The position numbers and the translations under genes were made by a program. DNA of 21,233 nt, taken from a virus. This document shows positions 4,065-21,152 of the stretch, piece after piece. How positions within the stretch are numbered: the first letter of the stretch is position 1; each line of letters begins with the position of its first letter. A model generated the notes under the pieces. That model saw nothing but the letters and a program-made list of their open reading frames with translations, had not been told where the DNA came from and did not search any database. Where the stretch lies: the IMG/VR virus record IMGVR_UViG_3300009155_000321, positions 1 through 21,233 of that record; one strand, written 5' to 3'.

Positions 4065-4589
4065 TCATACTTTTAGCATTTCATCCAAATCATATTCTTC
4101 ATCAAATACAAACCAATCGGCATGCTTTTGTTTAAGCGTTTTGAATTGGTCATGTTCAATTAAAAATTTAGCAACAAGACTTTGTTCTAAACCATATGCT
4201 TCGATTTCCCATGGCTGATCCCAGTATGAAATATCGTCTTCATATGTTTCACCTCTATATACTGTTACATATTTTGATTTTTTGTACCTATCCTTCATTT
4301 CCCCCTTCGCCATCTGTTTCAGATGAACCATTTCATGGGCAAGGATCAAAAACATATGTATTTTTGTTTTTATTCTTTTGATCTCTATATTGAATGTTCT
4401 AGGTAATGGTAGCCCTTCATATTCATAATCACAGTAACCTCCGGCATCAAGTTTATCCTTAATGTAGATGTTTAATGTTATATTTTTACTTAGTTGAGGG
4501 GATATTAGTTTTTCGGCAAAGAAGTTAGCCGCCATCTTTAATAGCTTAGTTAGTTGATTGTCTTTTGCTCCTCTAACCTTTACTATCAT
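4065..4589 (-). CDS. HExxH zinc metallopeptidase, SprT-like, late gene
   Basis: A 174-residue protein with the zinc-protease motif HEMVH (85-89) following a hydrophobic helix (MFLILA). A second block, DQPWEIEAYGLE (about 124-135), matches the P-W-E-x-E-A-Y pattern in which an acidic residue supplies the third zinc ligand. The layout resembles SprT-like or minigluzincin-type phage peptidases. Substrate unknown; virion maturation or host-protein degradation are possible. An exact late promoter TATAAATA lies at 4621-4614 and a ribosome site (AAAGGAAAAG) just before the ATG. This is unlike the surrounding early genes and suggests expression during virion assembly. Confidence 0.82.
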   Translation of the reverse strand: MIVKVRGAKDNQLTKLLKMAANFFAEKLISPQLSKNITLNIYIKDKLDAGGYCDYEYEGLPLPRTFNIEIKRIKTKIHMFLILAHEMVHLKQMAKGEMKDRYKKSKYVTVYRGETYEDDISYWDQPWEIEAYGLEQSLVAKFLIEHDQFKTLKQKHADWFVFDEEYDLDEMLKV

Positions 4590-4605: not shown

Positions 4606-4851
4606 CTACTTTTTATTTATAATTTTAAATTCCCCTATATCTTTAGCCATGGTTATTACTTGATTAGATTGTAGATTTTGGAGTTCTTTTAAATCATCAA
4701 TATCAAAAGGAATCGGAGATTCATCAATAGTAATGAAGGTATTACTATTCGACATTGTTTTAAGATTTGTGCCTGCCAATCTACTTCCAGAAAGTCTTTG
4801 CATATTAAACCCTAATCTTTGAGAAGTCTCTCTTGTTACTAAAGATGCCAT
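4606..4851 (-). CDS. Small protein downstream of gp41, unknown
   Basis: An 81-residue frame with no recognised domain; it contains Ser/Thr/Asn-rich residues and an acidic segment IPFDIDDLKELQNLQSN. Its start is uncertain. The ATG at 4851 overlaps the helicase gene by 47 nt with AGGA 4 nt upstream. A second ATG at 4803 would begin 1 nt after the helicase stop with AGGG 6 nt upstream, giving 65 residues; such 1-nt gaps are common in this window. The late promoter of the metallopeptidase gene lies inside its last codons. Confidence 0.62.
   Translation of the reverse strand: MASLVTRETSQRLGFNMQRLSGSRLAGTNLKTMSNSNTFITIDESPIPFDIDDLKELQNLQSNQVITMAKDIGEFKIINKK
4614..4621 (-). promoter_or_regulatory. 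T4-type late promoter TATAAATA
   Basis: Exact TATAAATA on the minus strand, 25 nt upstream of the metallopeptidase start codon at 4589. The same spacing is seen for the site at 1818-1825. Confidence 0.75.
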
Positions 4852-7558: not shown

Positions 7559-7587
7559 ATTATATAGCATAATGCAATTTTAGTCTA
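7559..7587 (-). promoter_or_regulatory. Sigma70-like promoter for uvsX
   Basis: Minus strand TAGACT (7587-7582), 17-nt spacer and TATAAT (7564-7559). The -35 matches consensus at four of six bases and overlaps the stop codon of the nuclease gene. The extended ATGC element of the other promoters is absent. Confidence 0.65.
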
Positions 7588-8397
7588 GTCATCTTTGCCG
7601 CATTTTGCTCTTTTGTCTTTGGTTAGTTTACCAAAGTCTACTTTCCATTCAGAACCTGGCGCCAATTCTTTGCCCGTTTTCGGTACATAGAATGTAATAC
7701 CTGATTCTTTTTCTACATCAACAACACGTACACGATACTTTGTTAAGTCATTTCCTAAATTAGGATATGGTGCAACGTGAGGAAACATCCATGCTGCGTA
7801 TTCATTTGTTTTCTGATTGATTACGATTTTATAAAATTTGTGTGGGACAACTACACCCGAACCAATCTTTTTATCTTGGTCATTATAGATGCCTCCGCCA
7901 AAAATTGTATATGGTGTATTAGATTGAACTGTCCAACCACGTACACTTGTTTCTAACAATTTCCAAATACCTCTGTTCAATGAGCCGGCTTGAGGAACCA
8001 TATTAGTCATCAGAAAACTTTCAAATTCAACTTGAACATCCCATGATAAATCTCCGTCGGGAGATACGTGACCTTTGTCATATCCGGTACCTGCATAGTC
8101 GCCAGGTACTGCTCCGCCTTTAACGGATTGATCTGCAGCAAAAGCATTTGTTCTTGCAACACATCCTAGTGCATTTTGTGGAAGTAATGTATATGCTACA
8201 TATGCAGGGATCTTTGCAGGTGCATCATATGCTACAAGATAGCCCTGTCGACAAATATAATTTAGTACTTTTTTAGTATCAGCCAAACCATATGGTGAAT
8301 GGGATTGACATTGTTGAGCGGGTAGAGGTTGTCTCTGATCCCAAGCTTGTGCAGATAAACCTGCAAACATTGCTAACGCAATTAATAATTTTTTCAT
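7585..8397 (-). CDS. Secreted non-specific DNA/RNA endonuclease (beta-beta-alpha metal type)
   Basis: A 270-residue nuclease of the NucA/EndoG family, which cuts DNA and RNA without sequence preference using Mg2+. The active-site motif DKGH (107-110; usual DRGH) carries the catalytic H110. TNMVPQ (131-136) and N141-x-G-x-W follow as in the family's metal-binding helix. The first 18 residues (MKKLLIALAMFAGLSAQA) are a clear signal peptide, so the product should go to the periplasm or outside the cell. The ATG overlaps the polymerase stop in an ATGA, indicating coupled translation. A periplasmic nuclease might degrade competing DNA or released nucleic acid for salvage; this is inference. Confidence 0.92.
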   Translation of the reverse strand: MKKLLIALAMFAGLSAQAWDQRQPLPAQQCQSHSPYGLADTKKVLNYICRQGYLVAYDAPAKIPAYVAYTLLPQNALGCVARTNAFAADQSVKGGAVPGDYAGTGYDKGHVSPDGDLSWDVQVEFESFLMTNMVPQAGSLNRGIWKLLETSVRGWTVQSNTPYTIFGGGIYNDQDKKIGSGVVVPHKFYKIVINQKTNEYAAWMFPHVAPYPNLGNDLTKYRVRVVDVEKESGITFYVPKTGKELAPGSEWKVDFGKLTKDKRAKCGKDD

Positions 8398-10895
8398 CCG
8401 AATAATCCTTCTAATGTTGCCTGTGGTTTAGCAGACCAACCGATACCGTGTAATATTGTATTCATAGGTTCTAGAAAAGATTTATCAAACATAGTCTCAT
8501 AATCTATAAACTTTAGTAGATCTAATTCAAGAGGTATTACAGTATTGAATGCTATACAATTTTCGCCGATAGTATTTGGTTCTTTTAAATAAACGAACTT
8601 GATCTTATCGCCCTCTTTAATTTGCTCATATTTTTTATCTAAGCCATGTTTCTTAGTATAGAAATTATAAAGCAAGGCTCCTCTGACATGCATCGGAGTT
8701 CCTCCCTTATATATATTAGCCTTGTCTGTATACTTATCTATACCATTAACGCCTCGAGGAAATGAGATGTCTTCTGGTTTTAATTTCCTATACTCAGTCT
8801 CAAAGTCCATGATATACTTTTGAAGACTATCTTGGTCCGAAGTCAAAACCATTTTAACAGCTTTTCGCAAACCTTCTCTGATTGGTTCGGGTGTAGATGA
8901 TCTGACGATTTCTAATCCCATGACCTTTAGTTTAGGTTCGGCGTATTTAACACCTTCGTTGTTTAATACATTTAACGCATATCGTTTCTTAGCAACCCAC
9001 ACACCTGTCTCCGCGATTGCTTCTCGCTTGAATGAAATTTTATTATCGAAAGCATTAGTGTATTCAGAAATTTCTCCACATACCTTGTTCAATACTTCCT
9101 GAATTTTAGTCTCGCAAATTTGATCTAGTATGTCTACAATTTTTTCTGGTTCTTTACCTTTGTAGAATTTTTCTACAAGAGGAGCAAGGGTAACATAACA
9201 AGAATCAGTATCAGAATAAAATGAATACTCAAAATCTTTTGTGCCACATACCTTATTCAAATAATCATTTAATGCTACGCCTACTTTCTGAATAATATAC
9301 TGACCTGTTAGAGTAATACCTTCAGCAACTCGGTCATCATAAAATCTAAAGAACTCATTTGCCATTGCGCCAAATAAAGAATTCATCTGAATCTTACGAG
9401 CCATCTGAAAATTATTATACTTAGATATTTCTTTTAACCAGATTTTATCTTTTGTTTCTTCATACTTTGCCTGAGCAGACAACATCAAATTCTTATACTG
9501 TTTTCTATCATCAAATAACTTTTGAACGATCTCAGGAAATATACCTTGCTTGTCATTGGTATAGCATACGCCATTAGATGCCATGCAAATATTCTTTTCT
9601 GCTAAGTCCGAAGTATTAACTTTGTTCTCAAGCAAATCACTGACCTTAATATCCAAATAACTTTTTTCTATCGCCATTGTTTCTGGAGACATATTATACT
9701 GCATAATGATTGAAGGATACAGACTTGTTGCATCAAAAGAAACAACCCAATCATATTTGCCAGGTCTCGGAGTCTGTACATACGCTCCTGCAATTTGTCT
9801 GCCCTGATTACGCTGATTCTGATGAACCATAATATTTTTCTTAAGCAGTTGATTATATAGAATACAATCCCAAGTTCTTACTGCTGAGAAAATATCTACA
9901 TAGTTACATTTCGCATCATATGCCATTGTTAGAATCAACTCAATAAGTTTCATCTTTTCTTCCAGCTCGTCTACCAGTTCACAATCAATTACGTTATAAC
10001 GAACAAACTTTTGCCAATCACCTTTCCAAAATTCATTGAACGATGAAAACTCATCATAGTTCAATTTTTCTTTGCCGAGTTCTACTTTAGCAATATGATC
10101 CAACTTATATGATTCCTGATTACCATAAGTAAACTTCTTATAAAGATCAAGATAGTCTAGAATAGCAATACCCATTACATTGAATGAAATATTCTCTTTC
10201 TTAAATTTAAGTATGTTCTTTTCTTCAACAACCTTCCAAGGAGAAAATTTCTTCAAAGCATCTTCGCCTAGAATTTTGGTGATACGATTACATAGATATG
10301 GGATGTCAAAGAACTCCACGTTCCAACCTGTAATGATATGAGGATAATCTTCTGAGATATATTCCAAGAATTGTTTCAACAGATCCACTTCATCTTTACA
10401 TTGAACATAAGTGTGATTTGCTTGTTCTGGCTTGAAGGGAAACAATCCAAAAGACACAATCTGTTTACTCACGAAATCTCTAGTGGTAATAATCAATACT
10501 TTTTCTTGAGGATTCGCAATGTCAGGGAATCCATTTTCTGCAGATGTCTCAATATCCAATGTCCAAATCTTTAATTGAGACATATCAAATTCTACTTCTG
10601 CAGGCCATTGCTGAGAAATATATTGATATCCATAATTTGTATTTCCGTAGATTTCGAATCCCTCTACTTCCTTATACATTTTAACATATTCTTTGGCATC
10701 ATTGATACTTTCGAATTTGATCTCTGCAAGAGGTTTACCATAAAGAGATTTTGCAGTTGCTTTATCCCTGTTCATAGTTGTTGGTACAAATAATGACGGT
10801 TTAAACGGTATTCTATCTTGTACAGCGTGGCCGTTATTCAAACCTCTAACCAAAATATTGTTGCCGTACTGATTGACGCTTGTGTAAAACTTCAT
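8394..10895 (-). CDS. 43: DNA polymerase, family B (T4 gp43-like)
   Basis: This 833-residue polymerase replicates the phage genome. Proofreading exonuclease motifs: DIET (114-117), NVEFFD (192-197) and Y300-x3-D304. Polymerase motifs: A, DATSLYPSII (388-397); B, KIQMNSLFGA (501-510); C, YSDTDS (560-565) with D562 and D564; and KKRY (636-639). The C-terminal ATLEGLFG resembles the hydrophobic tail by which gp43 binds the gp45 clamp. T4 gp43 has 898 residues, so this is a compact form, intact as read. AAGGG precedes the ATG and a promoter lies at 10929-10957. The nuclease gene follows with a 4-nt overlap. Confidence 0.98.
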   Translation of the reverse strand: MKFYTSVNQYGNNILVRGLNNGHAVQDRIPFKPSLFVPTTMNRDKATAKSLYGKPLAEIKFESINDAKEYVKMYKEVEGFEIYGNTNYGYQYISQQWPAEVEFDMSQLKIWTLDIETSAENGFPDIANPQEKVLIITTRDFVSKQIVSFGLFPFKPEQANHTYVQCKDEVDLLKQFLEYISEDYPHIITGWNVEFFDIPYLCNRITKILGEDALKKFSPWKVVEEKNILKFKKENISFNVMGIAILDYLDLYKKFTYGNQESYKLDHIAKVELGKEKLNYDEFSSFNEFWKGDWQKFVRYNVIDCELVDELEEKMKLIELILTMAYDAKCNYVDIFSAVRTWDCILYNQLLKKNIMVHQNQRNQGRQIAGAYVQTPRPGKYDWVVSFDATSLYPSIIMQYNMSPETMAIEKSYLDIKVSDLLENKVNTSDLAEKNICMASNGVCYTNDKQGIFPEIVQKLFDDRKQYKNLMLSAQAKYEETKDKIWLKEISKYNNFQMARKIQMNSLFGAMANEFFRFYDDRVAEGITLTGQYIIQKVGVALNDYLNKVCGTKDFEYSFYSDTDSCYVTLAPLVEKFYKGKEPEKIVDILDQICETKIQEVLNKVCGEISEYTNAFDNKISFKREAIAETGVWVAKKRYALNVLNNEGVKYAEPKLKVMGLEIVRSSTPEPIREGLRKAVKMVLTSDQDSLQKYIMDFETEYRKLKPEDISFPRGVNGIDKYTDKANIYKGGTPMHVRGALLYNFYTKKHGLDKKYEQIKEGDKIKFVYLKEPNTIGENCIAFNTVIPLELDLLKFIDYETMFDKSFLEPMNTILHGIGWSAKPQATLEGLFG

Positions 10896-10911: not shown

Positions 10912-10919
10912 TATAAATA
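10912..10919 (+). promoter_or_regulatory. T4-type late promoter for the plus-strand operon
   Basis: Exact TATAAATA on the plus strand, 57 nt upstream of the ATG at 10976. It stands inside the divergent 80-nt spacer between gp43 and the membrane-protein operon. Confidence 0.65.
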
Positions 10920-10975: not shown

Positions 10976-11521
10976 ATGGCTGAACAAACAAAACCCCTAT
11001 CTAGAAGCGAACGAGAAGCTCTAATTAAAGATAAAGCTGGATGGGTAATTACTGTACTTGCTGCATTCTTAGCTATCAACACATTAATGGGCGGTAGTAA
11101 TAGTAGTAAAATTCTTAATAACACCATAGAAGCAAACAATACATGGGCTTTCTATCAAGCCAAATCCATCAAGCAAACTTTAACTGAAATGCGATACGAC
11201 GATGCAGTATCTGCAAATAAAGTAAAGCGAGCAGGGGAATTAAAATCTAAAATGGATAGATATGAATCCGATCCTGCAACAGGAGAGGGTAAAAAGGAAC
11301 TAATGGCCAAAGCTCGTAAGCTTGAAGAAGATCGAGCAGTAGCTAAATCTAGAAGTCCTTGGTATACATACTCGGGCAGTCTCTTCCAAATTGCTATTGT
11401 CTTGTTAACAGCAAGTATTTTAGCAGTTAACATGAGATTGTATTGGGCCAGCATTGGCGTAGGATTAATTGCATTTATATCTATGTCTCAAGCGATTTGG
11501 TTATGGATACCGTTTATGTAA
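10976..11521 (+). CDS. DUF4337-like membrane protein, first gene of late operon
   Basis: A 181-residue protein with three predicted membrane segments (about 23-39, 134-152 and 156-178) and a charged, helical middle part. The stretch ANNTWAFYQAKSIKQTL (53-69) after the first membrane segment is the hallmark of DUF4337, a family of bacterial and phage membrane proteins of unknown function. AAGGAG stands 5-6 nt before the ATG. It is the first of four tightly linked membrane-protein genes on the plus strand, opposite to everything else here, behind a late promoter. A role in the envelope, such as lysis timing, superinfection exclusion or a channel, is conceivable but not shown by the sequence. 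Confidence 0.82.
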   Translation: MAEQTKPLSRSEREALIKDKAGWVITVLAAFLAINTLMGGSNSSKILNNTIEANNTWAFYQAKSIKQTLTEMRYDDAVSANKVKRAGELKSKMDRYESDPATGEGKKELMAKARKLEEDRAVAKSRSPWYTYSGSLFQIAIVLLTASILAVNMRLYWASIGVGLIAFISMSQAIWLWIPFM

Positions 11522-11524
11522 CAA

Positions 11525-12367
11525 GTGGATCCGTTTACACTCTTTGCGTTAGCCAACGGGGCAGTTGCGGCTGTTAAGAAGGGTTGCCAACTATATAAAG
11601 ACATCAAAGGTGCTGCCGGCGAAGTCAAAGCGGTCTTAAAAGATCTTGACGATCAATTCAATAAAGCACATCCTCCAGACAAGCCTGCCTCACCTGCGGC
11701 TGTAAAGCAATTAGCAGAAGAAAAAGCTCGTGTTAAAGAATTAAATAAAAAGAGCGAAGACACAACTAACATATATGTAGAGATAGGTGATTACTTAGGC
11801 CAATACTATGATGCTTATTTCAAATGCCTAGCTGTACTTGAAGAAGAGGAAAGACGCAGCAAGACTGAAGTATATTCCGGTGATGCAAGTTTAGCTAAAC
11901 GCGCCCTACAAAGAGTTCTAATGAAAAAACAATTAGAACAAATGGGCACAGAACTTCGCGAATTGATGATATACCAAAGTCCTCCAGAACTTGGCGCATT
12001 GTATACTGAAGTTGAATCAATGACCAAAGAGTTAGGTGCTCAACAAAAAATTCTTATTGCTAAACAAATGCAAGCAGAAGCATTTAAAGCTAAGCAACGT
12101 AAAGAACGAATGGCAAAATATCAATTTGAATTTGCTCTAGGTATCGGCGCTCTTACAGTAATGCTTTTTATGGGAGGCGTATTTATGTATATTGCATACG
12201 ACGCACAGACCCGTTGGGGCAACTATATTAACAGACCAAATAATTTTCGAGAACAAGAACAAGCTATAAGAAAACAAGAATGGTTTGAGCGTCAAAAGAA
12301 AATACAAGAATACGAAGAGTTTTTAAAAGCAAAACGAAGACGGGAAGAACAACAAAATGAAACCTGA
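11525..12367 (+). CDS. Coiled-coil single-pass membrane protein, unknown
   Basis: A 280-residue protein starting with GTG 3 nt after the previous stop, with no clear ribosome site of its own, so translation is probably coupled. The N-terminus (MDPFTLFALANGAVAAVKKG) is amphipathic and is followed by long charged helices rich in Lys/Glu (about 55-200, with a KHPP-like AHPPDKPASP linker at 48-57). One membrane segment lies at about 204-225, and a very basic, glutamine-rich C-terminal helix follows. I know similar hypothetical proteins from marine T4-like phages, but no function. The coiled-coil plus single membrane anchor suggests oligomers at the inner membrane. Confidence 0.78.
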   Translation: MDPFTLFALANGAVAAVKKGCQLYKDIKGAAGEVKAVLKDLDDQFNKAHPPDKPASPAAVKQLAEEKARVKELNKKSEDTTNIYVEIGDYLGQYYDAYFKCLAVLEEEERRSKTEVYSGDASLAKRALQRVLMKKQLEQMGTELRELMIYQSPPELGALYTEVESMTKELGAQQKILIAKQMQAEAFKAKQRKERMAKYQFEFALGIGALTVMLFMGGVFMYIAYDAQTRWGNYINRPNNFREQEQAIRKQEWFERQKKIQEYEEFLKAKRRREEQQNET

Positions 12368-12698
12368 AACTGAAACATTAATTTTGGTTATTGGTTCTTT
12401 ATTTGGATTCTTTTTAATACCCACAATGCTAATAGTATTGCATGCATATTTGCTTGCTATACTTTTTATTGGGCTAATGATATCTACAATCGGGTTAACC
12501 ATCTATTATGGTTATATTGAATTGTTACCGATAGTAAGAAAAAAACATTTACATGATCAAGAAATCGAAGATAGGTTTCACGGAGACCCTAATAAGATTA
12601 AATTCTATAAAGGGTTTATGAATTTTTTTGCAGGTAATCTAGATCAAAAAGGACTACAACATTGGTTTGAAAATCATCCAACAAAACTCAAAAAATAA
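12357..12698 (+). CDS. Two-pass membrane protein, third gene of late operon
   Basis: A 113-residue protein with two adjacent membrane segments (about 8-30 and 32-54) and a 58-residue basic, soluble tail (RKKHLHDQEIEDRFHG..., ending HPTKLKK). Its ATG overlaps the end of the 280-residue gene by 11 nt. No family is recognised. The next small gene begins 2 nt after its stop. The arrangement implies that the four proteins are made together and perhaps form one complex. Confidence 0.75.
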   Translation: MKPETETLILVIGSLFGFFLIPTMLIVLHAYLLAILFIGLMISTIGLTIYYGYIELLPIVRKKHLHDQEIEDRFHGDPNKIKFYKGFMNFFAGNLDQKGLQHWFENHPTKLKK

Positions 12699-12700
12699 AA

Positions 12701-12841
12701 ATGTCAAAATCTTTTTTAGATGAACTTCGAATACAAGTAGAAGAAGCTGCCAGTATGGGGTTTTTTCTTTTAGTAGTAAGCCTCCTAATAGCAATCGCAA
12801 TGATTGTACTAGGAGGAGTCTTCTTACTTACTAGACGGTAA
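12701..12841 (+). CDS. 46-residue single-pass membrane protein
   Basis: A small frame from ATG 12701 to TAA 12839-12841. It has an 18-residue charged amphipathic start (MSKSFLDELRIQVEEAAS), one strongly hydrophobic segment (about 19-43) and a terminal RR. The layout resembles a holin accessory, pinholin or other phage micro-membrane protein. It begins 2 nt after the previous stop. Its 3' end overlaps the convergent Sm-like gene by 18 nt, and a long hairpin (12781-12816) is encoded inside it. Confidence 0.72.
   Translation: MSKSFLDELRIQVEEAASMGFFLLVVSLLIAIAMIVLGGVFLLTRR
12781..12816. terminator. Long nested hairpin at the convergent gene junction
   Basis: CCTCCTA (12781-12787) pairs with TAGGAGG (12810-12816). 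Inside it GCAATC (12791-12796) pairs with GATTGT (12802-12807, one G-U) around a GCAAT loop. For the minus strand the hairpin begins 7 nt after the stop codon of the Sm-like gene. For the plus strand it lies in the last codons of the 46-residue gene, followed by a T-rich stretch. Neither side has a long T-tract, so it may be an mRNA 3'-end stabiliser or a weak bidirectional terminator. Confidence 0.5.
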
Positions 12842-13138
12842 ATTGCCAGTCACAATTTGAATCCCCGATTCAAAGATTGAATTATATTGATTCAACACAT
12901 CGTCTGCTAATTCTGCAGTCCATACTAAAGACTTTTTATAAATCTCTATACTATGGTCTGCAGTATATGCAGCATATGGAATCAAAGCCATCGAATGTTG
13001 ATCAGGGGTTGATTTCGAAGAAACCAACATAACAGCACATGGTTTGTCAACCGTGATTCTGTCATCATGTGGTCCCGATGGCTTCATATCACCAATCACT
13101 TCCTCGCCTGTGACGAGTTTAATTACTTTAATTGTCAT
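12824..13138 (-). CDS. Small phage protein with Sm-like appearance
   Basis: A 104-residue protein beginning MTIKVIKLVTGEEVIGDM. The opening pattern V-x-K-L-x-T-G-E-E-V-I, then ITVDKP, LIPYAAYT and a final GIQIVTGNLPSSK, occurs in many cyanophage hypothetical proteins and looks like the short five-strand Sm/LSm barrel. If so, it could bind RNA; this is inference from pattern only. AAGGA precedes the ATG. It follows the DUF3563-like gene (14-nt gap) and is the last gene of the hsp20 group, ending in a convergent overlap with the late operon. Confidence 0.7.
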   Translation of the reverse strand: MTIKVIKLVTGEEVIGDMKPSGPHDDRITVDKPCAVMLVSSKSTPDQHSMALIPYAAYTADHSIEIYKKSLVWTAELADDVLNQYNSIFESGIQIVTGNLPSSK

Positions 13139-14371: not shown

Positions 14372-14804
14372 TCTTTCCACCTTTTGTTATTCTTCTTTTC
14401 ATTTCATCAATAATCGAATCGTTTAGAAGTGGGAGTACTTGTTTGGCTTTTTCTGTGCTGTAACCATAGTATTCTTTTATGACTTCCAAATCATCGATTT
14501 TCTCAGCCTTGATCCATTTATTAAATCTTTTCTTAGGCCTAATGATATTTATTAAAAAATGAAATTGAAGAATTTTGTCCAGGTGGGGACGAGAATTCAT
14601 TTCGTTTGCGGGGATTACTGTATCGTGACCATATGATAAACCCTTATTAATGATAAAGGGATTATACTGTTTTTCCGACCAATCGTCAACTATCAGATTA
14701 TCTTTGCTATAATGTATAGCATTGATAAAATCAAACGGCGTTATTGCTGGAGCTTTGTATGGTTCAATCTCAGGCTTTACTACAGGGGTTCCGAATAGGC
14801 TCAT
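14361..14804 (-). CDS. 62: Clamp loader small subunit (gp62-like)
   Basis: A 147-residue protein matching the cyanophage-type gp62: ITPFDFINAI near the start, YNPFIINKGLSY (about 47-58), a central ANEMNSRPHLDKILQFHFLIN and RPKKRFNKW, then EYYGYSTEKAKQVLPLL. gp62 joins four gp44 subunits to load gp45 clamps on DNA. It is shorter than T4 gp62 (187 residues), as in cyanophage relatives. It overlaps the upstream membrane-protein gene by 4 nt (ATGA) and regA by 11 nt. The call rests on pattern and position between gp44 and regA. Confidence 0.9.
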   Translation of the reverse strand: MSLFGTPVVKPEIEPYKAPAITPFDFINAIHYSKDNLIVDDWSEKQYNPFIINKGLSYGHDTVIPANEMNSRPHLDKILQFHFLINIIRPKKRFNKWIKAEKIDDLEVIKEYYGYSTEKAKQVLPLLNDSIIDEMKRRITKGGKNEY

Positions 14805-15088
14805 AACACCATCCTTAGTAATCCTATAGAATCAATGGTTACTAGGAGCATATAGTTAGCCAGCATACCAAATGATTTCCTAGTGTAAGCAGCCCAAGCG
14901 TACATAGCACAACCCACAATCCATATAGGATAAAGAACAAATAGGGGTGGATTTGGTACCGTGGATGCCATCGTAATAGAACACCCGATAGATATAGCCC
15001 AAGCAAACAACTCAATAAAAAAACGAAACCTATTACTAGTATAATCATTGCGAATCCAATCAAAGGTGGGTCTAAATAACTCTATCAT
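14801..15088 (-). CDS. Small membrane protein between gp44 and gp62
   Basis: A 95-residue protein with about three hydrophobic segments (near 23-42, 48-68 and 74-94) and a polar start (MIELFRPTFDWIRNDYTSNR). No family recognised. It is placed between the two clamp-loader subunits with ATGA-type overlaps on both sides, so it is made together with them. It may anchor replication at the membrane or be unrelated; the sequence does not decide. Confidence 0.75.
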   Translation of the reverse strand: MIELFRPTFDWIRNDYTSNRFRFFIELFAWAISIGCSITMASTVPNPPLFVLYPIWIVGCAMYAWAAYTRKSFGMLANYMLLVTIDSIGLLRMVL

Positions 15089-16895: not shown

Positions 16896-17173
16896 TATTT
16901 AATCTCCTTGGTTTCAATGTCATGCGTATATAAAAGCATTAATGCATAGTGTAACACCTTTAGTACGTCTTGTCTATTCCTTCCGGCTTTCTTTCCGTAT
17001 CTTTGGGCATACTTAATTATATTCCCAACCGTAAAGCCTACGCCGTGACCTGCATCAATTACGAATTCGGTTGTTTGGAATTTATTTTGCGAATAATGTT
17101 CGCCATATGTTTTGTCAATGTACTCTTTAAGTTCTTTTAAAAGAGTTTCTTCATTATATTTGTATTCTGTCAT
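16895..17173 (-). CDS. DUF3310-like small protein
   Basis: A 92-residue protein. The part GNIIKYAQRYGKKAGRNRQDVLKVLHYALMLL (about 51-82) follows the pattern (N-x-I-K-Y-x-x-R-x-G-K-K...D-L-x-K-x-x-H-Y) of DUF3310, a phage family often annotated as a nucleotide kinase without direct proof. It lies between the glycosyltransferase-like gene (4-nt ATGA overlap) and gp45 (1-nt overlap), linking the sugar cluster to the replication genes. Confidence 0.75.
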   Translation of the reverse strand: MTEYKYNEETLLKELKEYIDKTYGEHYSQNKFQTTEFVIDAGHGVGFTVGNIIKYAQRYGKKAGRNRQDVLKVLHYALMLLYTHDIETKEIK

Positions 17174-18009
17174 TTTACACTTTCAAATTTCTGTTGATGT
17201 AATTTTATTCTATCTTTCCAATATTCCAATGTCACCATATCTCTATTTAGTTCAAGCACAGGTAAAGAATTAATATCCTTACACACGTTCCAATCAGTTA
17301 TAATAATAGCACCCATCTCTTGATATAAAGGATCTAAATCAGAAGTCATTACTATAGGTATACTATTACACACAATCGATTCTACAAATCTATGAGAATC
17401 TAATGCGTTACCTCGAGGACAGCAAGAATACTTAGATATAGATAGTAATGTTAGAAAATGACTATAACTTATTCTATCTTTTAAATTTAAAATGCCGTCG
17501 CCATATAAATTATTTAAATCTGATCTACTATTATGAGTATCTCCAAATGGAGTTATAACTAAAGGTATAATTTTTTCTACAGGCAAATCTATATAGTCCA
17601 AAAAACTATTAGGTCTTTTATCCCCTAGTTCAGTAAACCCCATTGGTATTTGTAAAAATCTTTCGTCATATTTTTTAAAATTATGTCCAGACCAGCTTAC
17701 AACTTTGGTTTGTAAAATGCGATTTACTGTTGAATCATTTAAAAGCCTATCAGCATTACCTGTTAATAAATGGTAAGGTACAGATATATTTGCAAGTATA
17801 TCTACACATTGATCTAACAAATCTGCATTAACAAATATAGTATCATATGGTTCTACTTTAGTCCAACCAATTGGTTTATTGTGCGCAACAGTAACACCCC
17901 ATCCTTTATAGTAATCTACAGAATGGTCTAATATATAATCTGCAAGAGCGGGTAAACTATTATATCTAATATAACTAAATTTACCGCCCTCGATATAATA
18001 CTGATTCAT
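17170..18009 (-). CDS. Glycosyltransferase-like protein (exostosin/GT47-like C-terminus)
   Basis: A 279-residue protein. The segment CPRGNALDSHRFVESIVCNS (197-216) followed by IPIVMTSDLDPLY matches the donor-binding motif of exostosin-like glycosyltransferases (PxGxxxDxHRxxEAlxxGxIPIV). The N-terminal part is not clearly alignable but fits one Rossmann-like GT-B half. Such enzymes add sugars to surface polysaccharides or proteins. No signal or membrane segment is visible, so it probably acts in the cytoplasm. It overlaps its upstream neighbour (1 nt) and downstream neighbour (4 nt). Donor and acceptor unknown. Confidence 0.78.
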   Translation of the reverse strand: MNQYYIEGGKFSYIRYNSLPALADYILDHSVDYYKGWGVTVAHNKPIGWTKVEPYDTIFVNADLLDQCVDILANISVPYHLLTGNADRLLNDSTVNRILQTKVVSWSGHNFKKYDERFLQIPMGFTELGDKRPNSFLDYIDLPVEKIIPLVITPFGDTHNSRSDLNNLYGDGILNLKDRISYSHFLTLLSISKYSCCPRGNALDSHRFVESIVCNSIPIVMTSDLDPLYQEMGAIIITDWNVCKDINSLPVLELNRDMVTLEYWKDRIKLHQQKFESVK

Positions 18010-19211
18010 TAATACCTAGACTTTCGTTCAACAATAATAGCCGGGCGTCCGCTGAATACTGCTCTATGATATGCGTCTTCAAAATCATTACCTGTGACAG
18101 GATCATATACGGGGATACTAACAGCAGCTTTAAACATATTTGTAAAGTCTTGTGTATGTGTAATACCTGAATAGAATGGTCCTGCATCTGCAGTAACAGC
18201 TCTAATAATTACTGGTACTTTATATTCGCCATGTGATATACGTTCAATCTTATCAATATGGTTTACAATAGCATCCATTGCAACTAGAATAAAATCATGT
18301 CGTTCAATATATAGTACAGGTTTATATCCTTCAAAACTCATACCTATACAAAGTCCTGCCATTAAATTTTCAGCAACAGGTGTTTCCAATTTCTGATTAT
18401 CTGGTACATTCTTCAATGTACCCATGGCATTTCCACCTGGGGCATTGTTAACATTATACCCAACAAAGATAAAACCTTCATTGCCTAACTCTGTCATAAC
18501 CTTTGTTGCTGTTTCTTTATAACTTAAATTAGATGTAGTAGTTGCAGGATAAGATATTTCGGGCAACTTTGGAAAGTAATCATCATCTGTTTTCTTAACA
18601 GCTTTAGACAAATCAATCATGCCAGGTTTTCTTGCATGTGGATATGTAATGTTATAGTAGTACTTAATTACAGAGGGCGAATTCCAAACATAATCTGCTT
18701 GCTTGCCCCAGCGCTCTTCATTAGAAGCTTCTACAGAACGGTTATTATTTTCAATAACAAATTTACAAGGTAAATCCCAACCATCTACATAGCGAATTGC
18801 CTCATATGTATGACCGTTGTCTTCTGTGCCATCGCCAATAAAACACCATACCTTTTTGTCTGAGCCTTTACGCTTTAGTGCCCAAGCAATACCTGCAGCA
18901 ATAGCAGGGGTACCGCCAATAATAGCAGAACAAAAAAAGTTTCTATCGCGATCATAGATAAACATACTACGACCATTTAAAATTCTATCCTCAACAACCT
19001 CCGGAGGAATACCATGAAGCAAAGCATGATAATGACTACGATGATTAGAAATAACATAGTCACCTTCTTTAATATCTTTGAAAATATCAATTAGTTCTTT
19101 TTCATTTCCGCCAGATAGATGAAACAGAAAAGGTAGCTTATTATCTAAATATAATTCTCCGATTCTATCTTCAAAAGCAATAAGCTCTTGTTCTGTCCAA
19201 GTCTTTCTCAT
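18009..19211 (-). CDS. Fused E1-alpha/E1-beta thiamine-diphosphate enzyme
   Basis: This 400-residue protein joins two halves of 2-oxoacid dehydrogenase E1/transketolase-type enzymes. Residues about 1-215 look like E1 alpha: SHYHALLHGIPPEVV (59-73), a GRSM segment (80-83), IIGGTPAIAAGIAWALK (97-113) and the thiamine-diphosphate motif GDG (126-128) ... NN (155-156). Residues about 235-398 look like the E1 beta pyrimidine domain: LETPVAENLMAGLCIGMSFE (275-294) with the cofactor-activating glutamate E281, and DAIVNHIDKI. The C-terminal transketolase domain of about 120 residues is absent. The reaction is unknown; a carbon-carbon bond-forming or 2-oxoacid-decarboxylating step on a sugar or short acid is likely. 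The spacer to the dehydrogenase gene is 2 nt. Confidence 0.88.
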   Translation of the reverse strand: MRKTWTEQELIAFEDRIGELYLDNKLPFLFHLSGGNEKELIDIFKDIKEGDYVISNHRSHYHALLHGIPPEVVEDRILNGRSMFIYDRDRNFFCSAIIGGTPAIAAGIAWALKRKGSDKKVWCFIGDGTEDNGHTYEAIRYVDGWDLPCKFVIENNNRSVEASNEERWGKQADYVWNSPSVIKYYYNITYPHARKPGMIDLSKAVKKTDDDYFPKLPEISYPATTTSNLSYKETATKVMTELGNEGFIFVGYNVNNAPGGNAMGTLKNVPDNQKLETPVAENLMAGLCIGMSFEGYKPVLYIERHDFILVAMDAIVNHIDKIERISHGEYKVPVIIRAVTADAGPFYSGITHTQDFTNMFKAAVSIPVYDPVTGNDFEDAYHRAVFSGRPAIIVERKSRY

Positions 19212-19213
19212 TC

Positions 19214-20221
19214 TTACTCCTTAAAATTAATAACTATTCTACCGGCTTCTCCATTTCTCATCATTGAGAAGCCTTCATTTATTTTATTCAATCCTATAGT
19301 ATGTGTAACTAATTTGTTTGCCATACTTAAATTATTTTTGACATGCTTTACAATATTTGGAAGATCTACATCAGGTACAAAATTGCCACCATCTGAACTA
19401 AATATTTTAATCCCGTCAAATATAGATAGTGCATTTTTCAATACTAAATCTGTTCCTATTCTAGGCTGACCCACAAGTATCAAAGAACCTTTCTTTTTAA
19501 TTAAAGAAAATCCTTTAGAGATAACATCCACATTTCCTGTAGTATCTACAACATAATCATATTTGTCCGTACTTAAATTATCCAATGTAGAAAATGCTGC
19601 GCCAAATTCTTTAACATATGCTTCTTTAGATTCATATTTGTCTACTACAACTACACTAGTATTATATAATACTTTTAGCCAGAATGCAATAGTTAAACCT
19701 AGTCCTCCAGCTCCAGTGATCAAAACAGATGAATCAGGTTTGATGTCCGATTTAACTATACCATATGCTGTAGATAAAGCACATCCCATCAATGGATATA
19801 AGTTTGTTAAATCGGAATCAAAATCAACTTTGGTTACTCTATTTTCAGCAACAATAGTTTGTTCTGCGAATGTAGTAACAGGCCCCGATCCTACTATACC
19901 CAATTTACTAAAATATTTTCCACCAAAGCAATCACAGCCGCTTCCAACTTTCCAATGTAATACTACATAGTCTCCGACTTTTACTGTAGTAACATCTTCA
20001 CCAAATGCAATAACTTGACCAAAACCTTCGTGCCCCATAAAATGAGGTAGGTATTTATCCTGCCCCTTTACTGCATCTATCTCATTAATTTGTGCGCCAC
20101 ATAAACCTGAGGTAATCATCTTTACAAGAACTTGACCTTTGCTTGGTTGTTCTGTACTGAATGTTTCTAGGGATAGAGGTTTATAGTGTTCTCGTAACAC
20201 TGCTGCTTTAAATTGTGCCAT
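19214..20221 (-). CDS. Zinc-dependent medium-chain alcohol dehydrogenase family protein
   Basis: A 335-residue NAD(P)H-dependent oxidoreductase. From the ATG at 20221, residue C41 (SGLCGAQ), H64-E65 (GHEGFG) and C147 (MGCALSTAYG) fit the catalytic zinc ligands, and GAGGLG (170-175) is the Rossmann loop. D194 after the second strand (VVVDK) favours NAD. Only two cysteines (C96, C98) remain in the structural-zinc lobe, so that site is probably lost. The ATG at 20221 is chosen because it begins 1 nt after the kinase stop with GGAAG upstream; a longer frame to 20278 would overlap the kinase gene. Likely an oxidoreductase for a sugar or polyol; substrate unknown. Confidence 0.9.
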   Translation of the reverse strand: MAQFKAAVLREHYKPLSLETFSTEQPSKGQVLVKMITSGLCGAQINEIDAVKGQDKYLPHFMGHEGFGQVIAFGEDVTTVKVGDYVVLHWKVGSGCDCFGGKYFSKLGIVGSGPVTTFAEQTIVAENRVTKVDFDSDLTNLYPLMGCALSTAYGIVKSDIKPDSSVLITGAGGLGLTIAFWLKVLYNTSVVVVDKYESKEAYVKEFGAAFSTLDNLSTDKYDYVVDTTGNVDVISKGFSLIKKKGSLILVGQPRIGTDLVLKNALSIFDGIKIFSSDGGNFVPDVDLPNIVKHVKNNLSMANKLVTHTIGLNKINEGFSMMRNGEAGRIVINFKE

Positions 20222-20222
20222 A

Positions 20223-21152
20223 TTATCTTCCAAATAAATCTTCTTTGTTTGCTCTATATTGTATACCAGAGGAAACAAATTTTGCAGCTAATTTATTTGC
20301 ATAATCAACACTGCTCATAAATGAATATCCTTCAGAGAAACAATAACTTAATACTGCGAGAACGGAATCTCCTGCTCCGCTTAATTCTTTAACTTCAACC
20401 TGTTCTGCTTTAGAATGAATGAGACCTTCATCTCTATCAAAAGCATATATACCTTCATTACCTGCAGTAATAACTATTTTTTGTATATTAAGTTTATCAC
20501 AAATTATTTTACATGCACTTTCCATATCATGATCTGGTGCATATCTTAATCTGATTTTTTCAAATTCATACTTATTTGGTTTAATGATTGTGCATCCTGC
20601 ATAACAACTTAGATCATCTTTTTTTGTATCTACGTATATTGGTATGTTGTTTGTATTACCATATTCTATAATAGCATGTGCAAGTTCTTTAGTAACAACA
20701 CCTTTTTTATAATCAACAATTATGATGTTATCTATATCTTTACTATTGGCAATATATTCTATAATACCAAGTTCAATTTCTGGTAGTATATCTTTAATTG
20801 TTTCATGGTCATATCTCAATAAGTGAGTATTTTTATACTCAGAAATGAGTCTAGTTTTAACTGAAGTTTTTCTTTCATGTTCAGCAAGAATTATAGGTTT
20901 ACAATTACTATGAAATTGGTCACCAAAAGAGTGATACATATCTTTAAATTCTGTACCAGTGACAGTAACAAATTCACACGTATGTCCGAGAGAACATATA
21001 TGGGCAACAACATTATATGCGCCGCCCAACATATCAATTTCTTTATCTACATCTAATACTAATGTAGGTGCTTCTGCAGATATTCTATTTGCGTTTCCGT
21101 AAATAAATTTATCAAGGATTAGATCGCCAATAACCAAGTGGTGTTTGTTCAT
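20223..21152 (-). CDS. PfkB-family sugar kinase, HldE/RfaE N-domain-like
   Basis: A 309-residue ribokinase-fold kinase. VIGDLILDKFIYG (7-19) followed by RISAEAP (23-29), GGAYNV (43-48), VDYKKGVVT (147-155), KPNKYEFEK and the catalytic GAGD (260-263, base D263) follow the kinase domain of HldE, which phosphorylates D-glycero-D-manno-heptose 7-phosphate on the way to ADP-heptose. The nucleotidyltransferase domain of HldE is absent, and no other heptose gene is certain in the window. The substrate could be a heptose or another sugar phosphate. It starts within the end of an upstream gene (41-nt overlap) and ends 1 nt before the dehydrogenase ATG. Confidence 0.9.
   Translation of the reverse strand: MNKHHLVIGDLILDKFIYGNANRISAEAPTLVLDVDKEIDMLGGAYNVVAHICSLGHTCEFVTVTGTEFKDMYHSFGDQFHSNCKPIILAEHERKTSVKTRLISEYKNTHLLRYDHETIKDILPEIELGIIEYIANSKDIDNIIIVDYKKGVVTKELAHAIIEYGNTNNIPIYVDTKKDDLSCYAGCTIIKPNKYEFEKIRLRYAPDHDMESACKIICDKLNIQKIVITAGNEGIYAFDRDEGLIHSKAEQVEVKELSGAGDSVLAVLSYCFSEGYSFMSSVDYANKLAAKFVSSGIQYRANKEDLFGR

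Follow-up and report, generated by a model that had tools for sequence, protein, structure and literature searches.

The DNA analysed here, referred to as the window, is the whole of a 21,233-base virus record from a T4-like phage. The only likely coding genes of its plus strand are four small genes, designated A to D, which stand behind a T4-type late promoter motif at the following positions:

10912..10919, plus strand: TATAAATA, late promoter motif of T4 type, placed 64 nt ahead of the start of A
10976..11521, plus strand: gene A, 181 aa, DUF4337 protein with a long helical hairpin and three segments predicted to lie in the membrane
11525..12367, plus strand: gene B, 280 aa, GTG start, helical part followed by one membrane pass and a variable tail
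12357..12698, plus strand: gene C, 113 aa, hydrophobic N-terminal half and conserved soluble C-terminus, overlapping B by 11 nt
12701..12841, plus strand: gene D, 46 aa, one-pass microprotein

A sequence-only reading of the window had described these genes as a tightly packed cassette of membrane proteins lying alone on its strand between two replication blocks, and that description was reproduced: the ORF list returns the same coordinates and lengths, the spacing is +3 nt between A and B, -11 nt between B and C and +2 nt between C and D, every coding gene on either side lies on the minus strand, and hydrophobic segments are predicted in all four proteins (three in A, one in B, a stretch of about 45 residues in C, one in D). 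On one side of the cassette lies the gp43/uvsX/gp41 block and on the other the regA/62/44/45 block. The family B DNA polymerase gp43 (8394-10895, minus strand) and a clamp-loader gene of the minus strand were identified by profile match; we read further translations of the window as UvsX, the helicase, RegA, the sliding clamp and the other clamp-loader subunit. The left end of the window carries 11 tRNA genes.

Several other minus-strand genes of the window were recorded. Between gp43 and uvsX, positions 7585-8397 encode an Endonuclease_NS-type nuclease (E 6.6e-38) that appears to carry a signal peptide, and members of its family (f10) are found near A/B or the holin gene in other relatives. 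Between the two clamp-loader genes, positions 14801-15088 encode a small membrane protein of a family (f17) that L039, L043 and L050 also encode, two genes away from B. Genes of sugar or surface-polysaccharide type at 1821-2648 and 17170-21152 were recognised by reading translations only, as a nucleotide-sugar dehydrogenase and glycosyltransferase-like, transketolase-like, alcohol-dehydrogenase-like and sugar kinase genes.

Regarding translation signals, A is the only gene of the cassette with a strong ribosome site (AAGGAG), and C is preceded by a weak one (GGGAAGA). Since B and D lack a ribosome site and start 2-3 nt past the preceding stop, their placement suggests translational coupling of A with B and of C with D.

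Comparison with relatives, by dN/dS and by homologues, confirms that A to D are real genes. In comparisons with close relatives, A has a dN/dS of 0.06-0.11, B of 0.09-0.14 and C of 0.18-0.23; for D it is 0.33-0.61, calculated over only 46 codons, and the case for D is made mainly by its 15 homologues, which extend down to 30% identity and share an invariant M1, D7, L37 and R45 in a 16-sequence alignment. The order A-B-C-D is repeated in the close relatives L002-L006 and in part in L030, L054 and L069, and A-B-C is found in many more relatives than the full four-gene order; recurrence of the gene order beyond chance is confirmed by these comparisons.

Gene A encodes a member of DUF4337, the match to PF14235 (E 1.7e-31; 110 bits, the cut-off being 27) spanning 148 residues and profile positions 7-158 of 161. 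An AlphaFold2 model of A (pLDDT 80.5, the other four models being much less confident) predicts three membrane helices to which a long hairpin of helices is attached. For both A and B, sequence and fold searches of the PDB gave nothing significant, and a search of a viral fold library gave uncharacterised proteins of uncultured phages only. DUF4337 is widespread, with many members on bacterial chromosomes, where, in contrast to phage A, neither B, C, D nor lysis genes lie nearby. The closest bacterial relatives of A are betaproteobacterial (62-67% identity), and in three close relatives of this kind the gene region also encodes an MscS-like protein (MS_channel_2nd, E 3.9e-19) or a ligand-gated-channel-like protein (a weak match under the cut-off, E 1.4e-4), suggesting that the betaproteobacterial branch of the family has a role connected with channels. 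In L152:2116-6590, in L155 and partly in L153, the A relative is flanked on one side by an MscS-like gene that includes a periplasmic-binding domain and on the other by a ligand-gated-channel-like gene.

The cassette might be read as serving a channel or membrane-homeostasis function acquired from the host, with A retaining a bacterial DUF4337 role in ion flux or envelope stress that aids late phage production and with B, C and D assisting. The wide distribution of DUF4337 in bacteria and the position of close betaproteobacterial relatives of A between an MscS-like gene and a weak ligand-gated-channel match speak for such a host-derived function, but no conserved neighbour or general operon partner of DUF4337 was found across bacteria in general, and the literature searched describes no function for DUF4337 and holds nothing on DUF4337 in phages. 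On balance, this origin of the function is considered unlikely.

Gene B encodes a protein with a conserved helical part of about 195 residues, then a membrane pass (hydrophobic segment at about 203-221) and a variable tail, as seen in a 57-sequence alignment; the AlphaFold2 model is all helix (pLDDT 84.9). Profile-profile comparison (hhalign) joins B to the family f22 (PHROG 32327, including gp60 of HMO-2011 and similar proteins) with a probability of 98% over 158 columns and an E-value of 2.4e-13 for the single comparison, with collinear N-terminal motif, helical body and membrane pass, and direct hmmscan of B against PHROG 32327 is weak (E 0.21). Like B, members of f22 have an MDPxT start, a helical body, one membrane pass and a lysis-region neighbourhood; they are shorter than B (about 150-220 aa) and have no annotated function, and HMO-2011, a 55-kb phage of Candidatus Puniceispirillum, is not T4-like, unlike the phage of the window. 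In HMO-2011 and in small metagenomic phages, genes of this B/f22 superfamily adjoin those for lysozyme, M15 peptidase, GH19 endolysin, holin or spanin. A match of B to cullin (E 0.03) was taken as chance helical similarity. In the group L112-L139, f22 is preceded by a tiny secreted-looking protein (f43) of about 50 aa with two conserved Cys-Trp stretches, and some B proteins carry a Cys-containing tail similar to f43, possibly a split or fused pair.

Neither B, C nor D matches a characterised family in Pfam or PHROGs. The hydrophobic stretch of C reads as two membrane passes, one of which passes a strict cut, and the soluble C-terminus is conserved in the available 18-sequence alignment. The 3' end of D overlaps a convergent minus-strand gene (12824-13138) by 18 nt; D lies on the same strand as C in the clade of the window and on the opposite strand, convergent, in L007-L025. 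Against L006, D shows fewer synonymous changes than C (dS 0.40 vs 1.93, a small sample), and the low dS of D may reflect constraint on the DNA or recombination.

Late expression, which the sequence-only reading had proposed, gained support from relatives. The motif TATAAATA occurs once on the plus strand of the window and is kept at some 64 nt upstream of A among the closest relatives; L073, L075 and L079 have CATAAATA in its place, and in L047, L119 and L132 the motif is again present though the upstream DNA aligns poorly with that of the window. In G020, a 222-kb relative in which 237 of 258 mechanically called ORFs are on the minus strand and A-B-C-f9 is one of three plus-strand runs of at least four genes, the 32 motif sites (about 41 expected) show no overall over-representation, yet 17 of them are intergenic and close ahead of a start, while the control TATAAATG has 2 of its 28 sites so placed (Fisher p 2e-4). 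The cassette of this 222-kb relative has CATAAATA at the corresponding position. Genes behind these sites include those for the major capsid protein, head scaffold, tail tube, baseplate tail-tube cap and head closure. NATAAATA has been reported as the late promoter motif of cyanophages (PMC2984593). Late transcription of the cassette is therefore well supported as a prediction, by the conserved motif at promoter distance before A, the same motif before late genes of the lineage in G020, and the use of NATAAATA in cyanophages. Another copy of TATAAATA, at 4614 on the minus strand, lies 25 nt upstream of a putative metallopeptidase-like gene (4065-4589, minus strand; PHROG 10499), at the same distance as in G020, where the homologue weakly matches DUF6782.

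Late timing would also fit virion or morphogenesis proteins, for instance proteins holding head or tail assembly at the membrane, and in some relatives A or B is found among large secreted or repeat-rich genes (f15, f19, f13). Against this, A to D have no structural-protein match in Pfam or PHROGs and carry one to three membrane passes, which is unusual for virion proteins of tailed phages. We regard a virion or morphogenesis role as very unlikely.

Regarding co-occurrence, pattern scans of IMG/VR returned 264 stretches encoding a relative of A and 68 encoding a relative of B, while a search of deposited phages returned no relative of A and only three records for B, all from one metagenomic source. 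Of 30 records searched whole, 27 have A, 16 have B and 8 have C, the gene calls in relatives being mechanical (longest ORF plus conservation), so that small genes may have been overlooked or called in excess and some starts are placed too far upstream. Thirteen records hold both A and B, which lie less than 3 kb apart in twelve; in the thirteenth, G018, an interrupted A lies 9 kb away. All eight records with C also hold A and B, and C is always directly downstream of B. Seven records with A and without B have f22 beside A, in G004 and G009 a weakly matching protein (f192) adjoins A, and some records, e.g. G001, G002, G003 and G006, have A with neither B nor f22. Other small genes, f9, f47 and f42 among them, take the place of C or D in relatives.

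These patterns divide what had been suggested from the window. Of the proposed co-occurrence of four genes, the pairing of A with B and the presence of C with A and B held up, but A, B and D were also found apart. Independent occurrence in relatives had been set beforehand as counting against a joint complex, and it was found in part: the idea of one complex of four is weakened by relatives with A without B, with B without A, and often with D on the opposite strand, and an obligate four-protein complex is not supported by the gene content of the records. Judged by occurrence across the records, the stable unit is A with B or a B homologue, and C is a frequent third member; given the distribution of A, B, f22, C and D, the four-gene set of the window is best described as a local version of a more general A plus B-type module.

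It could also be that A, B, C and D have no joint function and are separate small late genes that share only a promoter and a tolerant insertion site, as might be expected from the finding of A, B and D apart in relatives and from the small genes (f9, f47 or f42) that stand in for C or D. The proximity of A and B in twelve of the thirteen records holding both, at several genomic locations, argues against mere co-location, as do the restriction of C to records with A and B among those searched and the lack of ribosome sites of their own in B and D; we consider this reading quite unlikely.

Regarding lysis genes, no holin, endolysin or spanin gene was recognised in the window, and the cassette of this phage was accordingly not found within a lysis cassette. 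In relatives, genes were identified for an endolysin (f8; PHROG 181, E 4e-75), an i-spanin (f16; a weak match, E 0.0013), an o-spanin (f14; LysC, E 1.4e-7) and a holin-like protein (f4; PHROG 3427, E 6e-6, with Pfam GTA_holin below cut-off). An endolysin or holin gene lies less than 3.5 kb from A or B in 14 of the 20 records in which A or B is present and an endolysin or holin was located, where uniform placement would give 3.0, a descriptive count since the large records were hand-chosen and are partly related to each other. In G001, G005, G007, G008, G013, G014 and G026, A abuts the holin or endolysin gene (4-36 nt). Two gene orders recur, spanins-endolysin-A-B-(C)-D-holin and spanins-endolysin-f43-f22-f51-A-holin, and in phages with the second order the neighbouring genes read as terminase, PhoH and portal genes, not as T4 replication genes. 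In G020, which shares the arrangement of the window, the module lies 96 kb from the nearest lysis gene, and it is also unlinked to lysis genes in G004, G006, G016, G021 and G022. In L016, L034, L041, L047, L056, L085, L103, L120 and L142, a second peptidoglycan-acting phage gene lies near A or B; it encodes a D-Ala-D-Ala carboxypeptidase (f42; Peptidase_S11, E 9e-44 in L041) that appears to carry a signal peptide.

An association of the module with lysis is thus probable from its gene neighbourhoods. Lysis control was the best of the roles suggested earlier, with A, B and B homologues found repeatedly among endolysin, spanin and holin genes, but the module is detached from such genes in the clade of the window. 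No match of A to D to a holin or to a spanin was obtained in Pfam, PHROGs or NCBIfam, and because separate genes for these functions adjoin A/B in several relatives, A to D are themselves unlikely to be a holin, endolysin or spanin.

The same neighbourhoods bear on superinfection exclusion or late envelope protection, in which A to D would change the inner membrane and block DNA injection by later phages, proximity to lysis genes reflecting shared late transcription. Consistent with exclusion, all four are predicted membrane proteins made late, and the module shifts between genomic locations in the manner of accessory genes and is detached from lysis genes in the clade of the window. The repeated tight linkage to endolysin and holin genes in several phage groups argues for a different role, and A to D match no known exclusion or defence family; comparison with the PADLOC-DB defence models gave no credible match, a weak and partial match of C to DpdD (E 0.0033, 14.7 bits) being taken as chance. 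Exclusion is considered rather unlikely.

With holin, endolysin and spanins separately encoded, accessory lysis or envelope proteins appear the most likely identity of A to D. The explanation that we put forward, tentatively and at somewhat less than an even chance, is that a late inner-membrane core of A and B is accessory to the separate holin, endolysin and spanins and most likely modulates the opening of the holin. The cassette would belong to the lysis-region gene repertoire of aquatic Caudoviricetes and, in the clade of the window, would occupy the gp43-regA junction with a late promoter of its own; the A plus B core would be made late, enter the inner membrane and modulate when or how the holin opens the membrane, and C and D would be auxiliary membrane subunits. 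We infer the topology, the physical complex and the action on the holin.

A bolder form of this proposal is that the A plus B-type proteins constitute an undescribed lysis-timing apparatus, widespread in aquatic phages, that jointly gates or inhibits the holin in the role of the T4 r genes; this is doubtful. Lysis inhibition by proteins unlike those of T4 has been described in phage N4 (PMC12642591), and the T4 r genes have been reported as absent from cyanophage genomes (PMC2984593), which would leave a lysis-timing role without a known holder in related aquatic phages. If the module tunes lysis, it would represent a way, common among aquatic phages and so far undescribed, of controlling phage release. 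From its gene context, a first hypothesis on the function of the bacterial family DUF4337 and of the B/f22 superfamily can be framed and tested.

Compared with known systems, B resembles Rz-type spanins in its long helices, single membrane pass and spanin-gene neighbours in relatives; it differs in that the relatives encode their own i-spanin (f16) and o-spanin (f14) beside A/B, and B as an i-spanin was ruled out on these separate genes and the lack of a spanin match. In T4, lysis inhibition involves the holin t with the antiholins rI and rIII. The likeness of A to D to this system is one of possible working only, as small late membrane proteins that could tune a holin, and A to D have no sequence match to any lysis family in Pfam, PHROGs or NCBIfam. 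Similarly, ORF52 of phage BSPM4, a holin modulator that tunes lysis timing and is encoded outside the lysis cassette (PMC11657625), provides a precedent for holin tuning, likened by role alone and set as a single protein beside the gene cluster A to D.
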